Positions 1-11,483 of a stretch of DNA of 64,000 bases are shown here, one piece after another. The stretch lies in assembly GCA_030248295.1 (NCBI GenBank), contig JASANH010000800.1, positions 1-64,000 of the forward strand. Reading direction: 5' to 3'. The notes beneath the pieces were generated by a model. It saw nothing but the letters and a program-made list of their open reading frames with translations, ran no database searches and was not told the DNA's origin. Both the position numbers and the translations under genes were made by a program. The first letter of the stretch is position 1; every line of letters starts with the position of its first letter. Source of the stretch: Mesodorylaimus sp. YZB2_4 (Eukaryota > Nematoda > Enoplea > Dorylaimida > Dorylaimidae).

Positions 1-325
1 CAGCAACATTTCTTCCAGCAAAGCAAAGCACCAGTTACAGTTCGTGAGCACACTCAGATTCATATCCGTGAGAATAACAACGGCCAGCTTATCCCAAGCA
101 CATATCAACAAAGCATAAATAAGACAAGATAGTTGAGAAAAGCTCAAAGTTTTTTCTGAAATCAAAAGTCGGAATGAGTCCTCGATTTATGGATATTTCT
201 TAACACCTGACTTTGGGAAGACAGAAATTGGATTGACTTGCAGACTTTTAAAAAACCGTCTAGCATACTGGGCATTCTGGAACAATGATTTGGTGGCTGG
301 CTCCTTGCATTAGTGCTTTTGAAAA
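1..325. other. Flank of the Helitron ORF
   Basis: The 3' flank of the minus-strand Helitron gene. No ORF is present. A Helitron 3' terminus (hairpin plus CTRR, or a Helentron-like end) could lie here, but none was recognised with confidence. Confidence 0.4.
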
Positions 326-3300
326 TTAGAGAATACTGACATGGAGACCTGCTGGAATTTCGGACGTTTTTTCTAACAGCATGAGGTACACATTTTTCAA
401 ATCGTATGGGAAATCATCATACTGCAAATTGTGATCATCGCAAAGGACCCATCCACGTTCAGTTCGAACCAAAGCCTTGTAATGGCCAGAAATCATGGCT
501 GCACCAAAATGGAAAACCAAAGCTGTGGCTTTGAACTTAGCGTTTCCAATCTCAATTTCATCTGGATCGCAACCAGGAATACCACGATTGTCAAACCCCC
601 TTTCCGTGTGGCGCGTCACGTGAATCAGAAGCTGATCAGGCGGATGACCCAGATCGAACGAACACTTTACAGACTGTTCATGGCAAACATGGCAAGGAAC
701 AGTTTCGTCAGACCCCCATACCCGTAATTGCTCTTGGAAGGTACGACCTGAGCGTGGGTCAAACACCAAGAAAAAAGACGATTCGATTTGATCGCCTAAG
801 TGATTCTGGCTGCATCCAGCAGTCATGCATCGACGTCGATAAGTAAATCGAAACAAGTCTTCCAGCATTACCCTCTGCAGAATTTTTTCAACAAATTCTC
901 TGGCGCATTGTTGACCAGTAAGAAAGGGCACACCTAAGCTTTTCCGAACCGACGTCGCACTTAATGCCCTCACATGCGTGCCAGCCTTCCTCTGTTCGTA
1001 CGCGAAATAGAGATCTTGCAAAGCCGGAAGAGCGCCTCCAAACGAATCTTGCTGCAAAAATTCGGTGAAGCGAGGTGAAGCAAACAAGAAATGTATCGAA
1101 CTATTCGCATAACAAGAAGAGCCAGGATTAGTCATTGCTGCCCACTGTGGTTTCATCGTCATCCGCACACATGGAAAAGCAAGTCCCATATCAAAATTAG
1201 ATGATTTCTCTCCCATGATCTTTTCGCCAGGCTCCCCCTCGACTCTTGGAACTATGCGCTCTTTATTTCGCCCCTTCATTTTTCGAGCCCCCTTGCTCTG
1301 ATCATACATAGCCGGAGACGGGTCTGTGCCAGCACCTGAGAATTCATACCATCTCCTATCCTTTCGAGTGCCTAATCTTACAACTGAAAATTCCACCTGT
1401 GGCAAATTCGGAGCAAAGGAAGAACGCAATCGATTGATTTCGTCGATGCACAGCTTGCTGCACTTGGCCCATTTGGGATCAAAATTGATCAAATGTAAAC
1501 CGTTGAGCGATCTCACTCGAGACATTCCAACATACATCATGCTACTCTGAAAAAGGCTATTGCCAGCATCCAGAAGCACGTTCGATAAGCTAACACCTTG
1601 AGATTTGTGGATGGTCATGCTGTACGCCAGGGTCACGGGAATCTGATGCAAGAATACGACGATACGAGAATTCAAGTTGAAGGAAACTGTAAATCGAGGG
1701 ACTATGCGAGCTTCAGTTGCATTATCGAAAAGGACCCTAACGCCCATCACGACCTTTTTATCCCAGACAAATTCTTGCACTGTTCCAATAGCACCATTCA
1801 CAAGCCCCGCTCTAACATCAATATTTCTCCGAAGCATCACCCGAGCCCCAATGGCCAAGTCAAGAACCATCTCGACGCCCGCAGTCGTGCTCACTTTTTT
1901 CGAACGACTGCGCAGCTGTGCCCGAGCTCTTACCAACTCTGCTTTTGTGTGATGGCCATGGATCCTATCGATGGCTGGCACCTGCACTACCTCCTTGTTT
2001 TCTTTCGCTAGAATGTAGGAGTTGAACTCCATGACCATCTTAGTGGTCGGCAAAAGACACACTGCCCCCGAATCCTTGGAACGAATTTTCATATACTCAT
2101 TGGCTAATGAGCCAATCAATGGCTGTTCCTTGGCGGACTTCAAGATGATGCAACGCGATTCGAGTAGTGCAACATCATTATCCGTCACAAAGCCGTAGCG
2201 AAGTCTCTCCAACACGGCAGCATATACTCGATCATCCTTCTGTCTCATGTTCTCCATCAACTCATCGTAAAGATCGAAATCGCGCTGCCAAATATTGTTG
2301 CTGCCTACGCCAAGGTTTCTGGCAACTATAACATCGCTCGGAATAGCTTCAAAAACATATTGCGCATTGACTGGCTTCAATTGAGCGAAATCGCCCATGG
2401 CCAGAACACTAACGCCTCCAAACGGTGCATGGCCGCCCAAGATTTCCTGCAGTCGCTTGCTGATATATAGGAGCAGAAGATTCGAGACCATGCTTAGCTC
2501 GTCAATGATCAACAGCTTCAAGTTATGCAGCGCCCCAGCTAGCTTCGCCCGCTCATCTGCATTTAATTTAAACCAAGGACCAGTCGTGCCGTGCTGCACA
2601 GGCAGCTTGAACAAGCGATGCAAAGTAATCCCACCAACATTGAATGCTGCTAACCCAGTAGGAGCTGAAATCGCAACAGTTGGTGAGTCAGCTTCAAAGA
2701 AGAATTTCTGAACAAATTTTTTTATGGCGTGAATTAAAAAACTTTTCCCTGTTCCTCCAGCACCGGTCACAAACATTCGAAAAGGCCCAGAGTCTTTAGT
2801 GGATATGCGGCTTGTTACGGTTTTAAAAACTCTGCGCTGGCCAGCGTTCATTTTTTCGAAGTCTTCTTCCCAAGAACTCATACTTGCGTCGGCTCCCATA
2901 GCAGTAGTCAACTCTTCGACTGCATTCTCGATATGAGCCGGCATGCCTATCGCCTCAGGATCAAAAACTTCCTGCGAATCAGGGTTCTCCCCCGCTTTAC
3001 GTATTTCTTCTTCTTGCGCAGCAAACTCTGCCACCTGCGCTTGCAACTTCTGATGATACTCTAACATGCGCAGATTAGTCGTCAATTCCTTTTCGAAAAT
3101 GGAACTGCAATTGCCAGTGACATCCAACAACTCCTCAGCCTCGCAACGAAATGGCTTGAACATCAACAGCAAGCTGTAACGATAAGCCTCGACCTCCTCT
3201 GGTCTCTTGAACACAGGATGGCTGACTAAAATTGGTTCATTGCGCAACTTTACCCCTCCACTACCTTTCACAAAACGCAAATCCCGCTCCTGGCTGACCT

Positions 3301-6300
3301 CGGGCGTATTAACCTTTTTATACATCCTCATAAAGTCGTACAGGCACATTTCTTCTAGCATCTTGGGCCTATTTGGATAATGGTCATCAATCCAATTCGG
3401 CTCGTATTTTTCTTTTGATGTCGGATTTTCCGCCTGCATTTGTTTCAGCTTCGACCACGATTTCATACACACTGTGCGGGAAGAAGGCGCACGCGCATTG
3501 ATGTATACCGTTTCTCTCGACTTCCCGTATAAAGGCTGACCGCGCAACCTGTCAACAGCTTCGATGATTCCACACTCGCGGTTTCGCAGCTTGGCAAAAC
3601 CATAAGCATAAAGCTGTTTTGAAACGGATTCGTTCTTATCAATGCTTTCCCAGAGCTCGGTAGCTCCTTTCTCTCCTTTTGTAACATACCCACACGTGTA
3701 ATTTGCCAGGGCTGTTGTCGACTCACCAACAAATGACACATCGGTATTAGCGCGCCATCCCAAAAGAATGATTTCATTGTAATCATTCACCCTACGCTCA
3801 CTTTCTGATCGTGGTAAATCATAAAAACGTTTTTCAAATTTCCCTTGTCGACGCTTTCCCAAAACTTGAAGTGGATCTCGAAAATGCAAATCGTCGCGAG
3901 CAGGGCGTGGAAAACCAAAACGACATTTTTTGATAAAACCTGAAGATTCAGGTACTCCCGAGTCATCCAGATCCCCTCGATTATTCTGTCCTCGCCTTTT
4001 CGAGAGCTTAATAGTTTTCAGGCAGTAAGAATTGCAGCGATGCATCTGATAGCTTTCCACCAATTTGTGCAAAATTGGCTCCTTCTGAGCATTCGGCAAA
4101 CGACATGTGACATGCTTATTTATGAAGTCCTTTACAACGTCGTCAGAATCAACTCCAGCACGCGGAGCATCCTTCACCCACAGCAACGTGTGGTAATGAA
4201 TATGCCCCCTGCACTGGTACTCTACCCGCCAGAAATAGTCCAATACCAAACCCAAGGGAGGAGACTCCTTGCTTAAAATTGCCTCATTAAAAAAAGAAAC
4301 GAAACGATGATGAAAATGATCTTGCGTCATTACCGGATCAATGGCAGTCAGGGTCGAAGTGCGCACAGTGTCGATATTAGGCAAATCCGAGTTCATTACC
4401 CTGAGCACCTGCGACATATCCTCCCAGTCAAACTCCGCGGCACTCAACGTATGAAACCAGGTAGGAGGCCCGAGCTCACGAATCATGCACAACACTTTCA
4501 TCTTCACCTGCTTCCAATATTCCGGACTGCCACGCATGTTTCGGAAAACTGTGGTCAGACAATGCTCTAATTGTCTATTTCCATCGCTAACCATCTGCAC
4601 AAACTCATCGATGCTCAAATTGTCAAATCGTTTCGTATTTCGCAAGGTTTGGTAAATACTAGCCGACATAGCACGCAATTCGTAGTCCCAGAGTAAATGA
4701 AATATGTATTGATGGTCACGCCTGAACCTAGGATCTTTATGCATGAGGCGATTTTTTGCAAATGCGCTTGGTTTTACTTTCTGCGGCCTAAAAGCTGCCT
4801 GTCCGAAACGGCCTGTTGGATAGAGTCCAGGGAAGCAAGCCAAATCGAGTTCCGGATGACGATTGTCAACCTTTTCCTCTTCGATGCGCATCATTTGGAA
4901 CATTTGCAGGTTCGATTCCTGCGGCATATCACGATCTAATGGACGGATGGTGTACGAGTCCAAAATCCTGGCCCGTTCGTCCGTGTCGAGCTGTCGTAAC
5001 ATTGGCTTCCCAACGGCCTTGGGAAAGGCACCCCTTTGCGCCAGTTGCTGACAAGCTTCCTGCACATCAGCAGCATCGACGTTTTCCTTAGCTTCCTCGT
5101 CCATATTGCTGCAAGAGCTTATTAGCTCTTCAATACTCAGAATCCATCTGTGCAAGTCTATGTCTTTGTACAGTGGATTGCTCGCTTTTAGCCATTGCAT
5201 AGCTTCCTTGACTTTGTCAAGCCGAATCACTGACTGCCAGATCTCCCTGTTTTTGGTTGGCACACTATTCAATAAAATGTGCAAACCAGGAGCTTTGTCT
5301 GAAGCTTCAGACAATTGCTTGATCGTCTCAGTCAAAGGCAGTGGATAATAAAGAACCTGACCCTTCACGGCCTTTAGCCGATCAGACGGGGGAACTTTGG
5401 ACCCAACTGACCCTAAACGACAGACAACCTGGAAGCACTTCCCCAGTTGAAGACACAACTTTTCAAATTCGTTCAGATCTAAAATTTCAGGTGGAACTTC
5501 GTCCACTGCCAGATTATTAAAAATCGATAAAGGCGAAAACTCGACTCCAGTTTTTATAAATTTATAGCAAACGTTGCAAACAAAGAAGCTCGAGTCATCC
5601 TTATCTGGTCGTAATGCAATCACACGCTCGTATAGTCTAGCCCACAGCTCATTCCATGGTGGGCCATGCCTATTCCGACCACCAACATGCAACGTTGGCG
5701 TCGTATCCTTTAAACGACGCAACTTGGGCATTCGTTCCCTTTTCTGACTCACGAAAACCTCTTTCACTGTTTTCCGATAATGCACAGTATGACATGACGC
5801 GCACACACAGTCTGGTTTTTCAAAAAAAGCCTTCTCCAAAGCTTTTGTATAAGGCAGAGCTGGAAATACTTCCTCAGCTGTCAAGACGGGATCGGCCCGA
5901 TGGACGTGCGTTTCACCTGCCGTATTTGGTCCACCAGAAGAGGAACCTGCTTTTACTAACGCTTCCAAAGCCTCGATATCACTCGAAATCAAAGCTTCAT
6001 CAAATTTTTGTAATTTTCTGTCAGTCGCGATAAGCCGATAAATCAACTGAACTAACAAATGCATGCGCTTAAAATGCACACCTAATTGACGAAGAAACAA
6101 AAGCTGGCTTTTGCAATTGCTAGGCAAGCAGGAAGAAGAATGGCCTAGCTTATCTCGCTGAACGATTAATGGAAATGATTCGCGTAGCTCATTTTCTGGC
6201 CAGCCTTTAGCAGTCGCTGGATCTTCTGGATAACGCAATATAGCTGAACGACAACCTCTCAAATTAGAGCATGAATCAATGCCCGAAATAACACGCCTGA

Positions 6301-7618
6301 TTTGCGAAACATTTGCAAAGAGCTTCAAAACCTCAGTCAATTTTCTGCCGCCATTTTCTGGATAATGGCAATGGGCATCACAGGGCCAGGTGTCCCTGTC
6401 ATGTTCTGGATGACGATCATCAGCGCCCAAAGAGATGACCGGGCAACGCAACGTTCTCGATGAATCCCTAAAGGCTACTTTTTTTCGGACAAGAAACATT
6501 TTCCTTTGCATTTTCGTTTTACTGATTTTACGAGTCAGTCGACATCGATTGCCTAAATCGGGATACCTGGCGTGCATTTTGGCGATTTGGGCGACTGCCT
6601 TTGCTCTCAGCCGAGCATATCGATATGGCCTGCTCTCGACCCTTGACACCACAGTCGTCGGTGGTTTGTAAGCGAACTCATAAAAATACGGTTCGCGTGT
6701 TCGCGCATGCCCACTTTCCCCGCAAAGCTCAGCCAAAGAGCAATCTGGATTTGAATCAAGTATCCCCAAAATTTCTTCAGAAACCTCTTTCAATTTTGAT
6801 GCCTGATCTTTTAAAGCAGCTGCGCACTGATTCCTCTTATTTACAACGCGCTGAACTAGCTGTTGAGCATCCGTCACAGATTTACTTATGCCCGCTTTTC
6901 GGTATGCCATCGAGACATTACGAACCATTCTCTGTTGGGAAACAATTCTACCAGTTCTCAAAAACCCCCGATTCCTGACATAGGCATATTCGCGGCTTGG
7001 AATCAAATAAAGAAACCTACGCTGCCGATTTATTTGCCTGGCGACCTCACTACTTATTTCCACGTGGCAACGTTTCTTCCTTCTATGTCGTTTTGAGGCA
7101 GCAGCAACAACTTCGGGATTTGCCAAAGCATATTTTTTGCTCGCTTTTGCACCAATTTCTGGGTGTCGCTGACGGTACCTCTCTCGCGCCGCTTTTCCAA
7201 CATCGGGCTTAGCACTACTATACCTTTTTCGGGCCTGCTTTCCAACTAGGGGATTTGATCGATTGTATTTTCCCCGCGCTTTCCTTCCCACCTCAGGATT
7301 CAAATCACTGTACTTTTCCCGCGCCTTTTCTCCTACTTCAGGATTCAATCGATTGTATTTTTCCCGCGCTCTCCTTCCCACCTCGGGATTCAAATCACTG
7401 TACTTTTCCCGCGCCTTTTCTCCTACTTCAGGATTCAATCGATTGTATTTCTCACGCGCCTTTTCTCTTACTTCAGGATTCAATCGATTGTATTTTTCCC
7501 GCGCTCTCCTTCCCACCTCGGGATTCAAATCACTGTACTTTTCCCGCGCCTTTTCTCCTACTTCAGGATTCAATCGATTGTATTTTTCCCGCGCTCTCCT
7601 TCCCACCTCGGGATTCAA
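326..7618 (-). CDS. Helitron-type Rep/PIF1 helicase fused to a ubiquitin-specific protease domain
   Basis: A 2430-residue ORF. Residues 1-180 are basic 15-residue repeats of NPEVGEKAREKYNRL type. Cysteine pairs near residues 603 (CVCASC) and 677 (CNVC) look like the zinc-binding part of Helitron Rep proteins. The region at about 900-1050 resembles the Helitron N-like domain. An HUH nuclease motif (CRGHIHYHTLLWV) lies near residue 1135, with paired tyrosines (YTCGYVTKGEKG) near 1306. A PIF1-type SF1 helicase follows: Walker A GAGGTGKS near 1618, Walker B IIDELS near 1700, GDFAQLKP near 1743 and TIHKSQG near 2003. The C-terminus is a USP protease: Cys box NPGSSCYANSSIHFL (Cys about 2169), zinc-finger cysteines (CMTAGC, CHVC) and His box SGHYKAL (His about 2377) followed by DD. 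HUH nuclease plus helicase is the rolling-circle transposition machinery. OTU protease fusions are known in Helentrons; a USP is unusual. Catalytic residues look intact. Element termini were not identified. The true N-terminus probably lies upstream but is frame-broken. Confidence 0.9.
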   Translation of the reverse strand: MNPEVGRRAREKYNRLNPEVGEKAREKYSDLNPEVGRRAREKYNRLNPEVREKAREKYNRLNPEVGEKAREKYSDLNPEVGRRAREKYNRLNPEVGEKAREKYSDLNPEVGRKARGKYNRSNPLVGKQARKRYSSAKPDVGKAARERYRQRHPEIGAKASKKYALANPEVVAAASKRHRRKKRCHVEISSEVARQINRQRRFLYLIPSREYAYVRNRGFLRTGRIVSQQRMVRNVSMAYRKAGISKSVTDAQQLVQRVVNKRNQCAAALKDQASKLKEVSEEILGILDSNPDCSLAELCGESGHARTREPYFYEFAYKPPTTVVSRVESRPYRYARLRAKAVAQIAKMHARYPDLGNRCRLTRKISKTKMQRKMFLVRKKVAFRDSSRTLRCPVISLGADDRHPEHDRDTWPCDAHCHYPENGGRKLTEVLKLFANVSQIRRVISGIDSCSNLRGCRSAILRYPEDPATAKGWPENELRESFPLIVQRDKLGHSSSCLPSNCKSQLLFLRQLGVHFKRMHLLVQLIYRLIATDRKLQKFDEALISSDIEALEALVKAGSSSGGPNTAGETHVHRADPVLTAEEVFPALPYTKALEKAFFEKPDCVCASCHTVHYRKTVKEVFVSQKRERMPKLRRLKDTTPTLHVGGRNRHGPPWNELWARLYERVIALRPDKDDSSFFVCNVCYKFIKTGVEFSPLSIFNNLAVDEVPPEILDLNEFEKLCLQLGKCFQVVCRLGSVGSKVPPSDRLKAVKGQVLYYPLPLTETIKQLSEASDKAPGLHILLNSVPTKNREIWQSVIRLDKVKEAMQWLKASNPLYKDIDLHRWILSIEELISSCSNMDEEAKENVDAADVQEACQQLAQRGAFPKAVGKPMLRQLDTDERARILDSYTIRPLDRDMPQESNLQMFQMMRIEEEKVDNRHPELDLACFPGLYPTGRFGQAAFRPQKVKPSAFAKNRLMHKDPRFRRDHQYIFHLLWDYELRAMSASIYQTLRNTKRFDNLSIDEFVQMVSDGNRQLEHCLTTVFRNMRGSPEYWKQVKMKVLCMIRELGPPTWFHTLSAAEFDWEDMSQVLRVMNSDLPNIDTVRTSTLTAIDPVMTQDHFHHRFVSFFNEAILSKESPPLGLVLDYFWRVEYQCRGHIHYHTLLWVKDAPRAGVDSDDVVKDFINKHVTCRLPNAQKEPILHKLVESYQMHRCNSYCLKTIKLSKRRGQNNRGDLDDSGVPESSGFIKKCRFGFPRPARDDLHFRDPLQVLGKRRQGKFEKRFYDLPRSESERRVNDYNEIILLGWRANTDVSFVGESTTALANYTCGYVTKGEKGATELWESIDKNESVSKQLYAYGFAKLRNRECGIIEAVDRLRGQPLYGKSRETVYINARAPSSRTVCMKSWSKLKQMQAENPTSKEKYEPNWIDDHYPNRPKMLEEMCLYDFMRMYKKVNTPEVSQERDLRFVKGSGGVKLRNEPILVSHPVFKRPEEVEAYRYSLLLMFKPFRCEAEELLDVTGNCSSIFEKELTTNLRMLEYHQKLQAQVAEFAAQEEEIRKAGENPDSQEVFDPEAIGMPAHIENAVEELTTAMGADASMSSWEEDFEKMNAGQRRVFKTVTSRISTKDSGPFRMFVTGAGGTGKSFLIHAIKKFVQKFFFEADSPTVAISAPTGLAAFNVGGITLHRLFKLPVQHGTTGPWFKLNADERAKLAGALHNLKLLIIDELSMVSNLLLLYISKRLQEILGGHAPFGGVSVLAMGDFAQLKPVNAQYVFEAIPSDVIVARNLGVGSNNIWQRDFDLYDELMENMRQKDDRVYAAVLERLRYGFVTDNDVALLESRCIILKSAKEQPLIGSLANEYMKIRSKDSGAVCLLPTTKMVMEFNSYILAKENKEVVQVPAIDRIHGHHTKAELVRARAQLRSRSKKVSTTAGVEMVLDLAIGARVMLRRNIDVRAGLVNGAIGTVQEFVWDKKVVMGVRVLFDNATEARIVPRFTVSFNLNSRIVVFLHQIPVTLAYSMTIHKSQGVSLSNVLLDAGNSLFQSSMMYVGMSRVRSLNGLHLINFDPKWAKCSKLCIDEINRLRSSFAPNLPQVEFSVVRLGTRKDRRWYEFSGAGTDPSPAMYDQSKGARKMKGRNKERIVPRVEGEPGEKIMGEKSSNFDMGLAFPCVRMTMKPQWAAMTNPGSSCYANSSIHFLFASPRFTEFLQQDSFGGALPALQDLYFAYEQRKAGTHVRALSATSVRKSLGVPFLTGQQCAREFVEKILQRVMLEDLFRFTYRRRCMTAGCSQNHLGDQIESSFFLVFDPRSGRTFQEQLRVWGSDETVPCHVCHEQSVKCSFDLGHPPDQLLIHVTRHTERGFDNRGIPGCDPDEIEIGNAKFKATALVFHFGAAMISGHYKALVRTERGWVLCDDHNLQYDDFPYDLKNVYLMLLEKTSEIPAGLHVSIL

Positions 7619-8165
7619 ATCACTGTACTTTTCCCGCGCCTTTTCTTCTTTTCTCTTGTACTTCAGGATTCAATCGATTGTATTTTTCCCGCGCTCTCCT
7701 ATCCACCTCGGGATTCAAATCACTGTACTTCTCCCGCGCCTTTTCTCCTACTTCAGGATTCAATCGATTGTATTTCTCACGCGCCTTTTCTCTTACTTCA
7801 GGATTCAATCGATTGTATTTTTCCCGCGCTCTCCTTCCCACCTCGGGATTCAAATCACTGTACTTTTCCCGCGCCTTTTCTCCTACTTCAGGATTCAATC
7901 GATTGTATTTTTCCCGCGCCTTTTCTCCTACTTCAGGATTCAATCGATTGTATTTTTCCCGCGCTCTCCTTCCCACCTCGGGATTCAAATCACTGTACTT
8001 TTCCCGCGCCTTTTCTCCTACTTCAGGATTCAATCGATTGTATTTCTCACGCGCCTCCTTCCCCTCGTTCTCCTTTTTCTCCTACTTCAGGATTCAATCG
8101 ATTGTATTTCTCACGCGCCTTTTCCCCAACTTCAGGATTCAATCGATTGTATTTTTCCCGGGCTT
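7255..8165 (-). repeat. 45-bp coding minisatellite (NPEV repeat), about 20 copies
   Basis: About twenty tandem 45-bp units, each coding a 15-residue basic, probably helical peptide on the minus strand. Two unit types recur, ending KYNRL or KYSDL, often alternating, which gives a 90-bp higher-order period. Neighbouring copies are nearly identical at the DNA level, which suggests recent expansion. The copies at the 7120-7255 end are much more diverged. Confidence 0.9.
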
Positions 8166-8427
8166 TTATCCCTACTTGGGAATTTGATCTGTCGTAATTC
8201 TGACGTGATTGTGCTCTGCTGGCGCTCTCAGAATAAAATTGACGTGATCTTTGGCCTGTTTCTGAGTTTTCATACCTTTTACGTGCCTTTTTCAAAGCTG
8301 ATGCGTTTGCTTTAGCAAATCGCCTCTTTGACTCCCGTTCTTTAGAAACATCGCGATCACAAGAGGCTTTACGCCTTTCATCGTAAGCTTTCCTAGCCGA
8401 CTTTTTTCGCCTTTGCTTAGAAACCAT
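7620..8427 (-). pseudogene. Frame-broken N-terminal extension of the Helitron ORF
   Basis: Two ORFs lie immediately upstream of the Helitron Rep/helicase ORF. The first, 8427 to 8047, starts with a lysine/arginine-rich segment (MVSKQRRKKSARKAYDERRK) and enters the same NPEV repeat; it stops after a 19-nt pyrimidine-rich insertion near 8055-8080. The second, 8033 to 7620, is pure repeat and stops after a 10-nt insertion near 7645-7665. Both insertions break the frame inside the repeat array, so the element probably once encoded one longer protein starting near 8427. The downstream ORF can still start at an internal methionine at the head of a repeat (7618). The alternative is that this allele uses two separate ORFs or contains assembly errors in the repeats. 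Confidence 0.6.
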
Positions 8428-9011
8428 CTTTAAGCCCCAAAACCTGTTCCTCCCACACCTCTGATCAGCAAAGCATTACCAAGACCAAGAGCAACTCTCA
8501 ATCTCAAAAAAGTATTTGAACAAGTACTGACCAGCTTTAATGTAAATCCAATTTCAGTCGCTCCAGTCAATATCGAGAACCAATTCGTGATGCACGCCAA
8601 TACCAAAAAGAACAACTCTTCGTAATAAGGGAGTGTGATTGACCAAAACCTACACCACGCGCACCCGTAACTTCACTACACACACTCAAAAATGACCCGC
8701 CCACTAAACTCGTAGGCGCCTAAATCGCCACGCACCTGTGGTAAGGAAACAAAGAAAGTGAGGTAGGCTGCCTGCTCGGCCAGTGTGTATACTTCACACG
8801 CAAAGTAGCAATCGTATACTGTAAGTACCTAAGTACAATAGGTTAGCCTTTTTCATTCCTCATTAATGGATATATATACGGATTAGTTACACTGGATTCA
8901 GCCCCTTTCCAATATTGACAAAAAATTTATCGATGGTAATAGGCTATGAGAAGGTGATGGGGTGACTAGTTAGGGAGGAAGCTAGCACTGAAGAAATCAC
9001 TAATGGTTTGA
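8428..9011. other. 5' flank of the Helitron, no gene seen
   Basis: Upstream region of the Helitron coding sequence with no convincing ORF or RNA gene. Its promoter and left terminus may be here but cannot be placed. Confidence 0.4.
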
Positions 9012-10192
9012 GAGATCGCTTAGTTCATTATATGATCATCATCTGTCACATACCGGATGATCAGTCAGCGACCGGGAGATAGGTAAACGATCGCGTGATT
9101 GAGTGATCGGTCATCGATCATATGGCCGGTCGTCGATTGGGTTATCGGTCATCGATCAGGTGATTGGTCACGGATTAGGGGATCGGCCATCGATCTTGTG
9201 ATTAGTTAGCGATCGAATGATCATTTTATCGATCAATTGATCGGTCATCGATTGGGTGATCAGTCATCTATTAGATGATCGGTCATCTATTAGATGATCG
9301 GTCATCGATTGGGTAATCGGTCATCGATCAGGTGATCGATCACGGATTAGGAGATCGGCCATCGATCGGGAGATTGGGTGATCCACTATCGATCGGGAGA
9401 TTGGGTGATCCGCCATCGATCGGGAGATTGAATGATCGGTCATCGATTGGGTGATCGGTCATCGATTGGGTGATCGGTCATCGATTGGGTGATCGGTCAT
9501 CGATCAGGTGATCGACCACGGATTAGGAGATCGGCCATCGATCGGGAGATTGGATGATTGGTCATCGATTGGGTGATCGGTCATCGATCAGGTGATCGAT
9601 CACGGATTAGGAGATCGGCCATCGATCGGGAGATTGGGTGATCCACTATCGATCGGGAGATTGGGTGATCCGCCATCGGCTGGGTGATTTTAAGCAAGGC
9701 GTCTCCTCCCTTGCATCGGCCATTGATTGGGAGATCGGCTAGTGGACGAATGATCAGTCATCGATAGGTAATCGGTCATCGATCCAGAGATCAGCCATCG
9801 ATCGAATGATCAATCATTGATCGAAGCTCGGTCATCGATCAGAATATCGGTCATCGATCGGGTGATTGGTTAGCGATCCAATTATCATTTCATCGATCTG
9901 GTGGTCAGTTAGAGGTCGAATGATCAGTCATCGATACGGTGATCGATCATCAGTCGAATGATTGGTCATCAGTTGGGAGATCGCTTAGTAGTCAGGTGAC
10001 CGGCTAGTGGTCGAATGGTCAGTCATCGATAGGTAATCAATCATCGACCGTGTGATTGGGTGATCGGCCATCGCTAGGGTGATCGGTCATTGATCGGGTG
10101 GTCAGTTAGCGATCGAATGGTCAATCGTCCATCAGGTGATCTGCCCGCGGCCTTACGATCGATTCATGATCGAGTGATCAGTCGAGTGACAT
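9012..10192. repeat. GATC-rich satellite, about 19-bp degenerate unit
   Basis: About 1.2 kb of degenerate tandem repeats with a basic unit near GATCGGTCATCGATTGGGT. Larger blocks are visibly duplicated, for example those containing CACGGATTAGGAGATCGGCC around 9345, 9515 and 9605. The palindromes GATC and ATCGAT recur every 9-19 bp. The array is interrupted near 9687-9713 by a non-repeat segment that matches the Helitron ORF. No coding potential is seen. Confidence 0.92.
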
Positions 10193-11483
10193 GCGTTCTT
10201 ACGCTATTTCATATCACTCATCTGTCTTGAGAGTGCTGATCGTTGTTTGCTGTATTTTGAATTTGCCGCCATTTTAAAATGTTATCTCACCTTCGGGTCA
10301 GCGTAATCCACGCTCACTTCGCTGTCAGCAGGTAATCCACGTTCAGTTTCGCTATTCCTCCATCGTCTGTAAGCTAACAATGTTCTAGGGTTACTCACGA
10401 TCAGCTAACATTATTATAATATTTTGATCTTTCATGCCCAAACAGACCGCCTTCAGAAATCGAAAACATCATACTGTTGTAATAAGAGGCTTTTCTCAGT
10501 CGCAAATTGTTCCCCGCACCATTCTGACTCGATTGAGCTATAGAAAGTTGCCCTAGGCCTCTCCAGACGGTTTTTATAGGGTCTAAAAGTACAAAAAATG
10601 ATAATTCCACCTGAGTGGACCCCCTTCTGAGCACCCTACAGCAATTTGGGTCAATAACTGGTCAAAATCAATGCCAAAAGGCACCAACAGTGATGTTACC
10701 CTGTCGATTGAACATATAGCTGGATCCCCCGCTCTCACACAGCTCCAGATCGGCGTTGTGATCTATCGGGTCCATACATACATACCTACATACATACCTA
10801 CATACATACATACATACATACGTACATACATACATACATACATACATGTATGACGCGGCACGTTTCTGCCCATAAAAGGATAACCAGTAAAGATTTCGAA
10901 AAGATTTTTGGTACGCGCCTTCCCCAACTAGTCCCCTATGTCCACACCAAATTTTATCGGTTTTGGCCGCATGGTTCGCGAGTTATAGCGAAAACAAGAA
11001 ACCTGGTCGGGTTTTTCGCCCTCGCACCCCTAGTATGAGTGGGGCCCGAACGGATAGAGATCTTGCAAATTCCTTCAGTAGAACTTAATCTAGTGTAAAG
11101 TTACACTAAGAAACGAAATTTCATCGCTTCATGACATCAGGCTGTTGAGATATCGTTGTTGGTGTGGCACATGTACTACATGGGGGACGCTACCGCGCCC
11201 CCATGGATAAGATCAGTGCCTGGACATGTGCGAACGCACAAAATTCCAGCCCAGGGGCAAAAACACCCGCGCGAGCGGGACAAAACAAGACCGCCAAAAA
11301 AAGAGAGAGAAAAGAAGAAAAAAAAAATCACAAAATTCCAAAAAAGAAAACACCTCCCCGAAAAAAAACCCAAAAAAGCACAAAAAAGGCCATACACAGA
11401 CACAGGTAAATTAAGTTCACTAGTATGGCCCTTCAGCAGTCATGTAAACTGACTTCTTTAGACAGGCTATGGGCTGCATTTGA
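10193..11483. other. Intergenic stretch with a TACA microsatellite
   Basis: No gene recognised. It contains the tetranucleotide array at 10776-10848 and an A-rich low-complexity stretch at about 11270-11400. ORFs here are short and compositionally driven. Confidence 0.5.
10776..10848. repeat. (TACA)n microsatellite
   Basis: Tandem CATA/TACA tetranucleotides with a few CCTA and CGTA variants. It is a simple repeat. Confidence 0.95.

Follow-up and report, generated by a model that had tools for sequence, protein, structure and literature searches.

A ubiquitin-specific protease domain at the C-terminal end of a Helitron Rep-helicase in Mesodorylaimus sp. YZB2_4

Some rolling-circle transposons are known to encode a deubiquitinase together with their Rep-helicase (RepHel), and the locus described here raises the question of whether a Helitron has recruited an enzyme of another class, a ubiquitin-specific protease (USP). 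The locus lies at the start of contig JASANH010000800.1 (GenBank assembly GCA_030248295.1) of the nematode Mesodorylaimus sp. YZB2_4, of which the first 64,000 nucleotides (the window) were analysed. A preliminary description, made from the letters of the window, had proposed that the end of a Rep/PIF1 open reading frame, at 326-1180, forms a USP rather than an OTU protease. Our results agree with this proposal, coordinates included, and we consider it rather probable that this segment constitutes the USP (peptidase C19) domain at the C-terminus of a Helitron RepHel, acquired before the lineages of the element split, kept by selection and acting in cis.

The C-terminal domain of RepHel

From stop to stop, the RepHel-USP frame (Table 1) counts 2447 codons with no internal stop, a length that has a chance of ∼2e-64 with independent bases of window-like composition. 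Along this frame, Pfam places DUF6570, Helitron_like_N, PIF1, Pif1_2B and UCH in that order. The nuclease part contains HIHYH, which we take to be the HUH-type motif, and NYTCGY, presumably the two-tyrosine motif of the Rep nuclease. The association of such a Rep with a PIF1 helicase in a single protein identifies the element as a Helitron. Pfam gave no AP endonuclease match in the open reading frame at E ≤ 1, the frame ending with the USP, and by that test the element is not a Helentron.

The UCH match covers residues 2179-2415 of 2446 and scores 32.7 bits in the whole protein and 41.0 bits (E 2.3e-10) when the C-terminal 290-aa segment is taken alone, the profile cut-off being 23.9 bits. No OTU match was listed for this segment (Pfam, E ≤ 10, with HMMER filters dropping most matches above ∼0.1). 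The Pfam scan returned no row for the viral-tegument-like deubiquitinases (VTDs), a class for which no profile was used, and the fold matches listed are USPs. The structural and profile matches include cellular enzymes (USP2, USP21, USP12/46 and USP15), at 16-21% identity in structural alignments. The domain shares with them the fold, the Cys and His boxes and the zinc ribbon, but differs by this low identity, its compact size (∼255 aa aligned), its fusion to RepHel and the presence of Q-C-A instead of QQDA. Among the 50 matches listed by a BFVD fold search were USPs from giant viruses and some protease regions from coronaviruses, at 7-20% identity, which indicates a shared fold only. A scan of IMG/VR with the USP alignment gave 37 pattern matches, which were rejected, none being a relative.

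The Cys box, zinc cysteines, His box and following Asp announced in the preliminary description were all located in the 290-aa segment, the role of each catalytic residue being presumed from knowledge of the family.

Lineages and conservation of the USP

A search of the genome for the USP gave 58 matches, corresponding to 50 places after merging, of which 32 were fetched and assigned to four lineages. Lineage A comprises the window copy, those of contigs C289 and C929 (identical in the USP), C507, C316, C722, C322 and others. The USPs of lineage B (C203, C628, C851, C611 and others) are 28-29% identical to those of A, and those of lineage C (C506, C767, C778, C504, C867 and others) 23-24%; in lineage D (C5), the value is 25% (blastp) and the fusion lies in a shorter frame. 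Rep, PIF1 and USP occupy one frame in C203 and C506 as in the window, which extends the in-frame fusion to divergent copies: identity to the window is 38% over the aligned frame with its USP and 43-49% in the Rep and helicase parts, and the linkers likewise carry basic stretches. In the whole genome, a USP lies downstream of Helitron_like_N, on the same strand and within 7 kb, at 22 of 58 merged loci. A single contig, C339, has both domains in the wrong order, and 28 of the 50 USP loci have no Rep match ahead within 7 kb. C67, a candidate USP-less Helitron, was rejected; it belongs to lineage B and ceases to resemble the other copies where the USP starts.

UCH exceeds the cut-off in all eight rows of our alignment (A1), in which the oxyanion Asn, the Cys, the His, Asp255 and the four zinc cysteines are invariant. 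At the third catalytic position, lineage A has Asp whereas B and C have Asn, residues that both occur in USPs, and the spacing between Asn and Cys is one residue longer in B, C and D than in A. Among the distinct fetched places, decayed copies included, the Cys is kept in 25/25, the His in 29/29, the Asp/Asn in 28/29 and the next Asp in 26/29, counting the places that cover each site, copies of the same lineage not being independent. The QQDA motif is usual in USPs and was not taken here as defining; it is present in the host USP L001 and replaced by Q-C-A in 27 of the 29 places covering it, in all four lineages. We also observed that the USPs of lineages A, B and C, not D, end with a common tail (VSIL or SISIL) despite differing residues before it.

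Between lineages B and C, USP identity is 57% and synonymous sites are saturated (pS 0.78, pN 0.295), PIF1 being 65% and the linker 49% identical, and the differences fall unevenly on the three codon positions (97, 78 and 166; p 6e-9). Ratios of nonsynonymous to synonymous substitutions (dN/dS) were estimated with a common reference copy per lineage. In 11 of 16 copy pairs, those with a synonymous divergence (dS) >0.15, dN/dS ranged from 0.22 to 0.55, and every bootstrap interval lay below 1; many copies carry stops, which are expected to shift the ratio towards 1. For the helicase, dN/dS was 0.35-0.50 in four comparisons, two more having zero comparable codons; selection on the USP thus has about the same strength as on the helicase. 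As judged from these substitution patterns, the USP is retained by purifying selection. In the trees, lineages B and C join with a support of 59 (helicase) and 100 (USP), and give no firm order for A and D. The shared Q-C-A suggests a single acquisition, of which the tree, containing a single host USP (L001), gives no proof. Acquisition of the USP most likely preceded the split of the Helitron lineages that carry it in this genome today.

Several observations weigh against the reading given at the outset. Lineage D groups beside the host USP in the tree (support 92) and may have acquired its USP separately. No USP match lies behind Helitron_like_N at 36 of the 58 merged loci; these loci comprise decayed copies, ends of contigs and at least one further type of Helitron (C47 and C22), in which the frames stop after PIF1. 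Divergence is faster in the USP than in the helicase (29% versus 44-49% identity between A and B); relative to lineage A, the USP is 23-29% identical, with 43-44% for PIF1, a divergence nearly that of the linker. The five pairs with dS <0.1 are compatible with a dN/dS of 1 (0.45-0.70, one 2.04). In the window copy, the frame changes within the N-terminal repeat array, the 5' part of the coding region lying in three overlapping frames (326-7669, 7620-8081 and 8047-8475), and the USP is untouched by these upstream changes. Finally, Q-C-A occupies a site that contacts ubiquitin in USP7, and the specificity of the enzyme may not be ordinary.

Possible role and alternative explanations

Being fused to the nuclease-helicase, the USP would work in cis, where RepHel sits. 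Its substrates would be RepHel itself or proteins present at the transposon end during replication; in the simplest reading, it would protect RepHel, or proteins of replication or repair located at the element, from removal that depends on ubiquitin. The transposase would then be spared degradation, or the rolling-circle intermediate would not be cleared. Similar roles have been put forward elsewhere: VTDs of Helentrons were proposed to prevent degradation of proteins required for transposition (PMC9741609), and OTU and Ulp1 domains were suggested to act on repair factors (PMC2836005).

Three groups of known systems can be compared with this element. Helentrons carry an OTU cysteine protease and an AP endonuclease at the RepHel C-terminus (PMC4067079, PMC2836005); they share with the present element rolling-circle transposition, the Rep-helicase and an encoded ubiquitin-type cysteine protease, whereas the protease here is a USP and our Pfam scans gave neither OTU nor AP endonuclease. 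The Helentron VTDs, found with an AP endonuclease, keep their catalytic residues, and zebrafish copies have measured activity, cleaving K48 and K63 chains (PMC9741609). In both cases a deubiquitinase with conserved catalytic residues lies inside a transposon reading frame, but the activity is here predicted, VTDs form a class apart from USPs and an AP endonuclease accompanies theirs. No mention of USP-bearing Helitrons was found in the consulted passages of that paper. Finally, Ginger1 and Mutator transposases occur with OTU or Ulp1 and a Trichomonas transposase with peptidase C19 (PMC2836005), which are likewise fusions of a transposase to a ubiquitin or SUMO protease, C19 in the Trichomonas protein; unlike the present element, they are not rolling-circle transposons. 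A Helitron with a deubiquitinase is known already, and the USP class is new as far as the literature was searched, no USP on a Helitron being found among the open-access papers listed by the searches (Repbase reports and most subscription papers lay outside the search). Since the protease belongs to neither the OTU nor the VTD class, independent recruitment of a USP by a Helitron is likely. That a deubiquitinase meets a recurring need, as first supposed, is strengthened by these cases: the presence on rolling-circle transposons of three protease classes with related chemistry, OTU, VTD and now USP, suggests that such transposition generally requires the removal of ubiquitin. With a small USP domain, a standard assay and an adjoining testable partner, the effect of ubiquitin on a Helitron transposase becomes directly testable.

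A bolder version would be that the USP was retooled, through Q-C-A in the ubiquitin-contact motif and the basic linker, into an enzyme that is tethered to the transposase, has a modifier or chain specificity of its own and is essential for transposition, as the third class recruited by rolling-circle transposons; we regard this as a tentative possibility. It is unlikely that, instead of the transposition machinery, the USP targets host defence in trans, for instance factors of germline silencing. Helitron-related VTDs have been speculated to lift restrictions on how transposons are inherited in the male germline (PMC9741609), but fusion to RepHel would put the USP on transposon DNA. We consider it quite unlikely that the protease is directed at another ubiquitin-like modifier (NEDD8, Fubi or SUMO) or processes itself. 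The near-constant Q-C-A in place of Q-D-A speaks for it, as do the USP18 and USP36 complexes among the structural matches, USP18 acting on ISG15 and USP36 on Fubi. However, the USPs that match best in structure and profile act on ubiquitin, and no ubiquitin-like domain is among the Pfam matches of the reading frame. Helitrons are known to capture genes (PMC4289320), and a host USP fragment could have been picked up with no role in transposition; this is very improbable, since the catalytic residues are kept, three lineages, with saturated synonymous sites, share the position of the fusion and keep the frame open (the fourth, C5, has it in a shorter frame) and dN/dS is below 1 in the informative pairs, a selection test that largely refutes passive capture. 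An assembly chimera joining a Helitron to a neighbouring host USP gene can practically be dismissed, the window contig starting within the element but the same fusion recurring on many contigs and across divergent lineages.

The element, its surroundings and the host

Table 1. Features of the RepHel-USP element in the window
Feature	Position	Strand	Basis or remark
RepHel-USP open frame	326-7669	-	stop codon 326-328; 2447 codons; domain order from Pfam
USP-type deubiquitinase domain, 290-aa segment	329-1198	-	Pfam UCH at 422-1132; fold matches
Third catalytic residue Asp (437-439) and next Asp (434-436)	434-439	-	residues CDD
Catalytic His codon	482-484	-	SGHYK, 476-490
Zinc-ribbon cysteines CX4C...CX2C	683-829	-	codons 827-829, 812-814, 692-694, 683-685
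Catalytic Cys codon	1112-1114	-	Cys box NPGSSCYAN, 1103-1129
Oxyanion Asn codon	1127-1129	-	within Cys box
Helicase-USP linker, basic stretch included	1199-1423	-	read from frame
PIF1-like helicase	1478-2851	-	Pfam: PIF1 2231-2851, Pif1_2B 1769-1876; C-terminal helicase motif 1478-1624
NYTCGY in Rep nuclease	3686-3703	-	located in translated frame
Helitron_like_N	4181-4759	-	Pfam; HIHYH motif at 4190-4204
DUF6570	5150-5533	-	Pfam
45-bp tandem repeat coding AREKYNRLNPEVG-type repeats, N-terminal side of RepHel	7251-8063	-	frame switches here
19/38-bp tandem repeats inside element	9097-10100	.	
5' terminus: TC then palindrome CATGGGGGCGCGGTAGCGTCCCCCATG	11179-11207	-	host A at 11208; shared end of copies

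Helitrons start with TC, inserted after a host A, and the 5' end of the element is of this kind. The copies of C316 and C280 match the window as far as 11209, 11208 being the host base. The 28-bp pattern of this end has 75 sites in the genome at ≤2 mismatches (34 exact; reversed control 0), and A precedes TC in all ten loci read among them, with differing outer flanks. On the other side, the likeness of C289 to C316 continues ∼3.6 kb beyond the USP stop and ends without CTRR, the 3' end lying outside the window. A Helitron 3' end would show a hairpin and CTRR in front of a host T, and comparison of the copies did not reveal such a terminus. Contigs C280 and C289 (1-7073 in both, the overlap being computed from USP positions) also begin inside the same element; their compared part (window 1-2698) is 100% identical, and they may represent both ends of a single copy left unjoined by the assembly. 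In the window copy, the open frame switches twice around the 45-bp array.

Cuticlin exons lie at 16.9-18.5 kb of the window and Col_cuticle_N has 133 matches in the genome; both being nematode hallmarks, the genome looks nematode-like. A search for SL1 RNA gave no match anywhere and is hence uninformative on the host, and no Rfam family reached the gathering score within the window.

Among 24 OTU matches of the genome, three places (C944, C378 and C185) were examined as possible Helitron partners. C944 was rejected: its OTU accompanies an integrase zinc-binding domain and no Helitron. This OTU frame (L064, C944:1247-2697), which lies behind the zinc-binding domain in a different frame, starts like a Tf2-type integrase SH3 (below the Pfam cut-off), and similar OTU frames occur on several contigs; it is a deubiquitinase-type domain on another transposon class of the same genome. 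In C378, an OTU frame (L065, 11356-11949) and a decayed lineage-C USP share a strand, the OTU frame lying ∼4.3 kb downstream.

Four lineage-A copies (C289, C929, C765 and C936) have an exon for a NADAR domain, associated with ADP-ribose chemistry, ∼1.5-1.6 kb past the USP in the same orientation (C289:8248-8517, equal to L042:3-272). It is followed in C289 by SGNH hydrolase-like frames (GDS and GTND by eye; no Pfam match). NADAR has 75 matches in the genome, and eight of these, within uninterrupted frames of 485-570 codons, suggest another mobile family carrying this domain.
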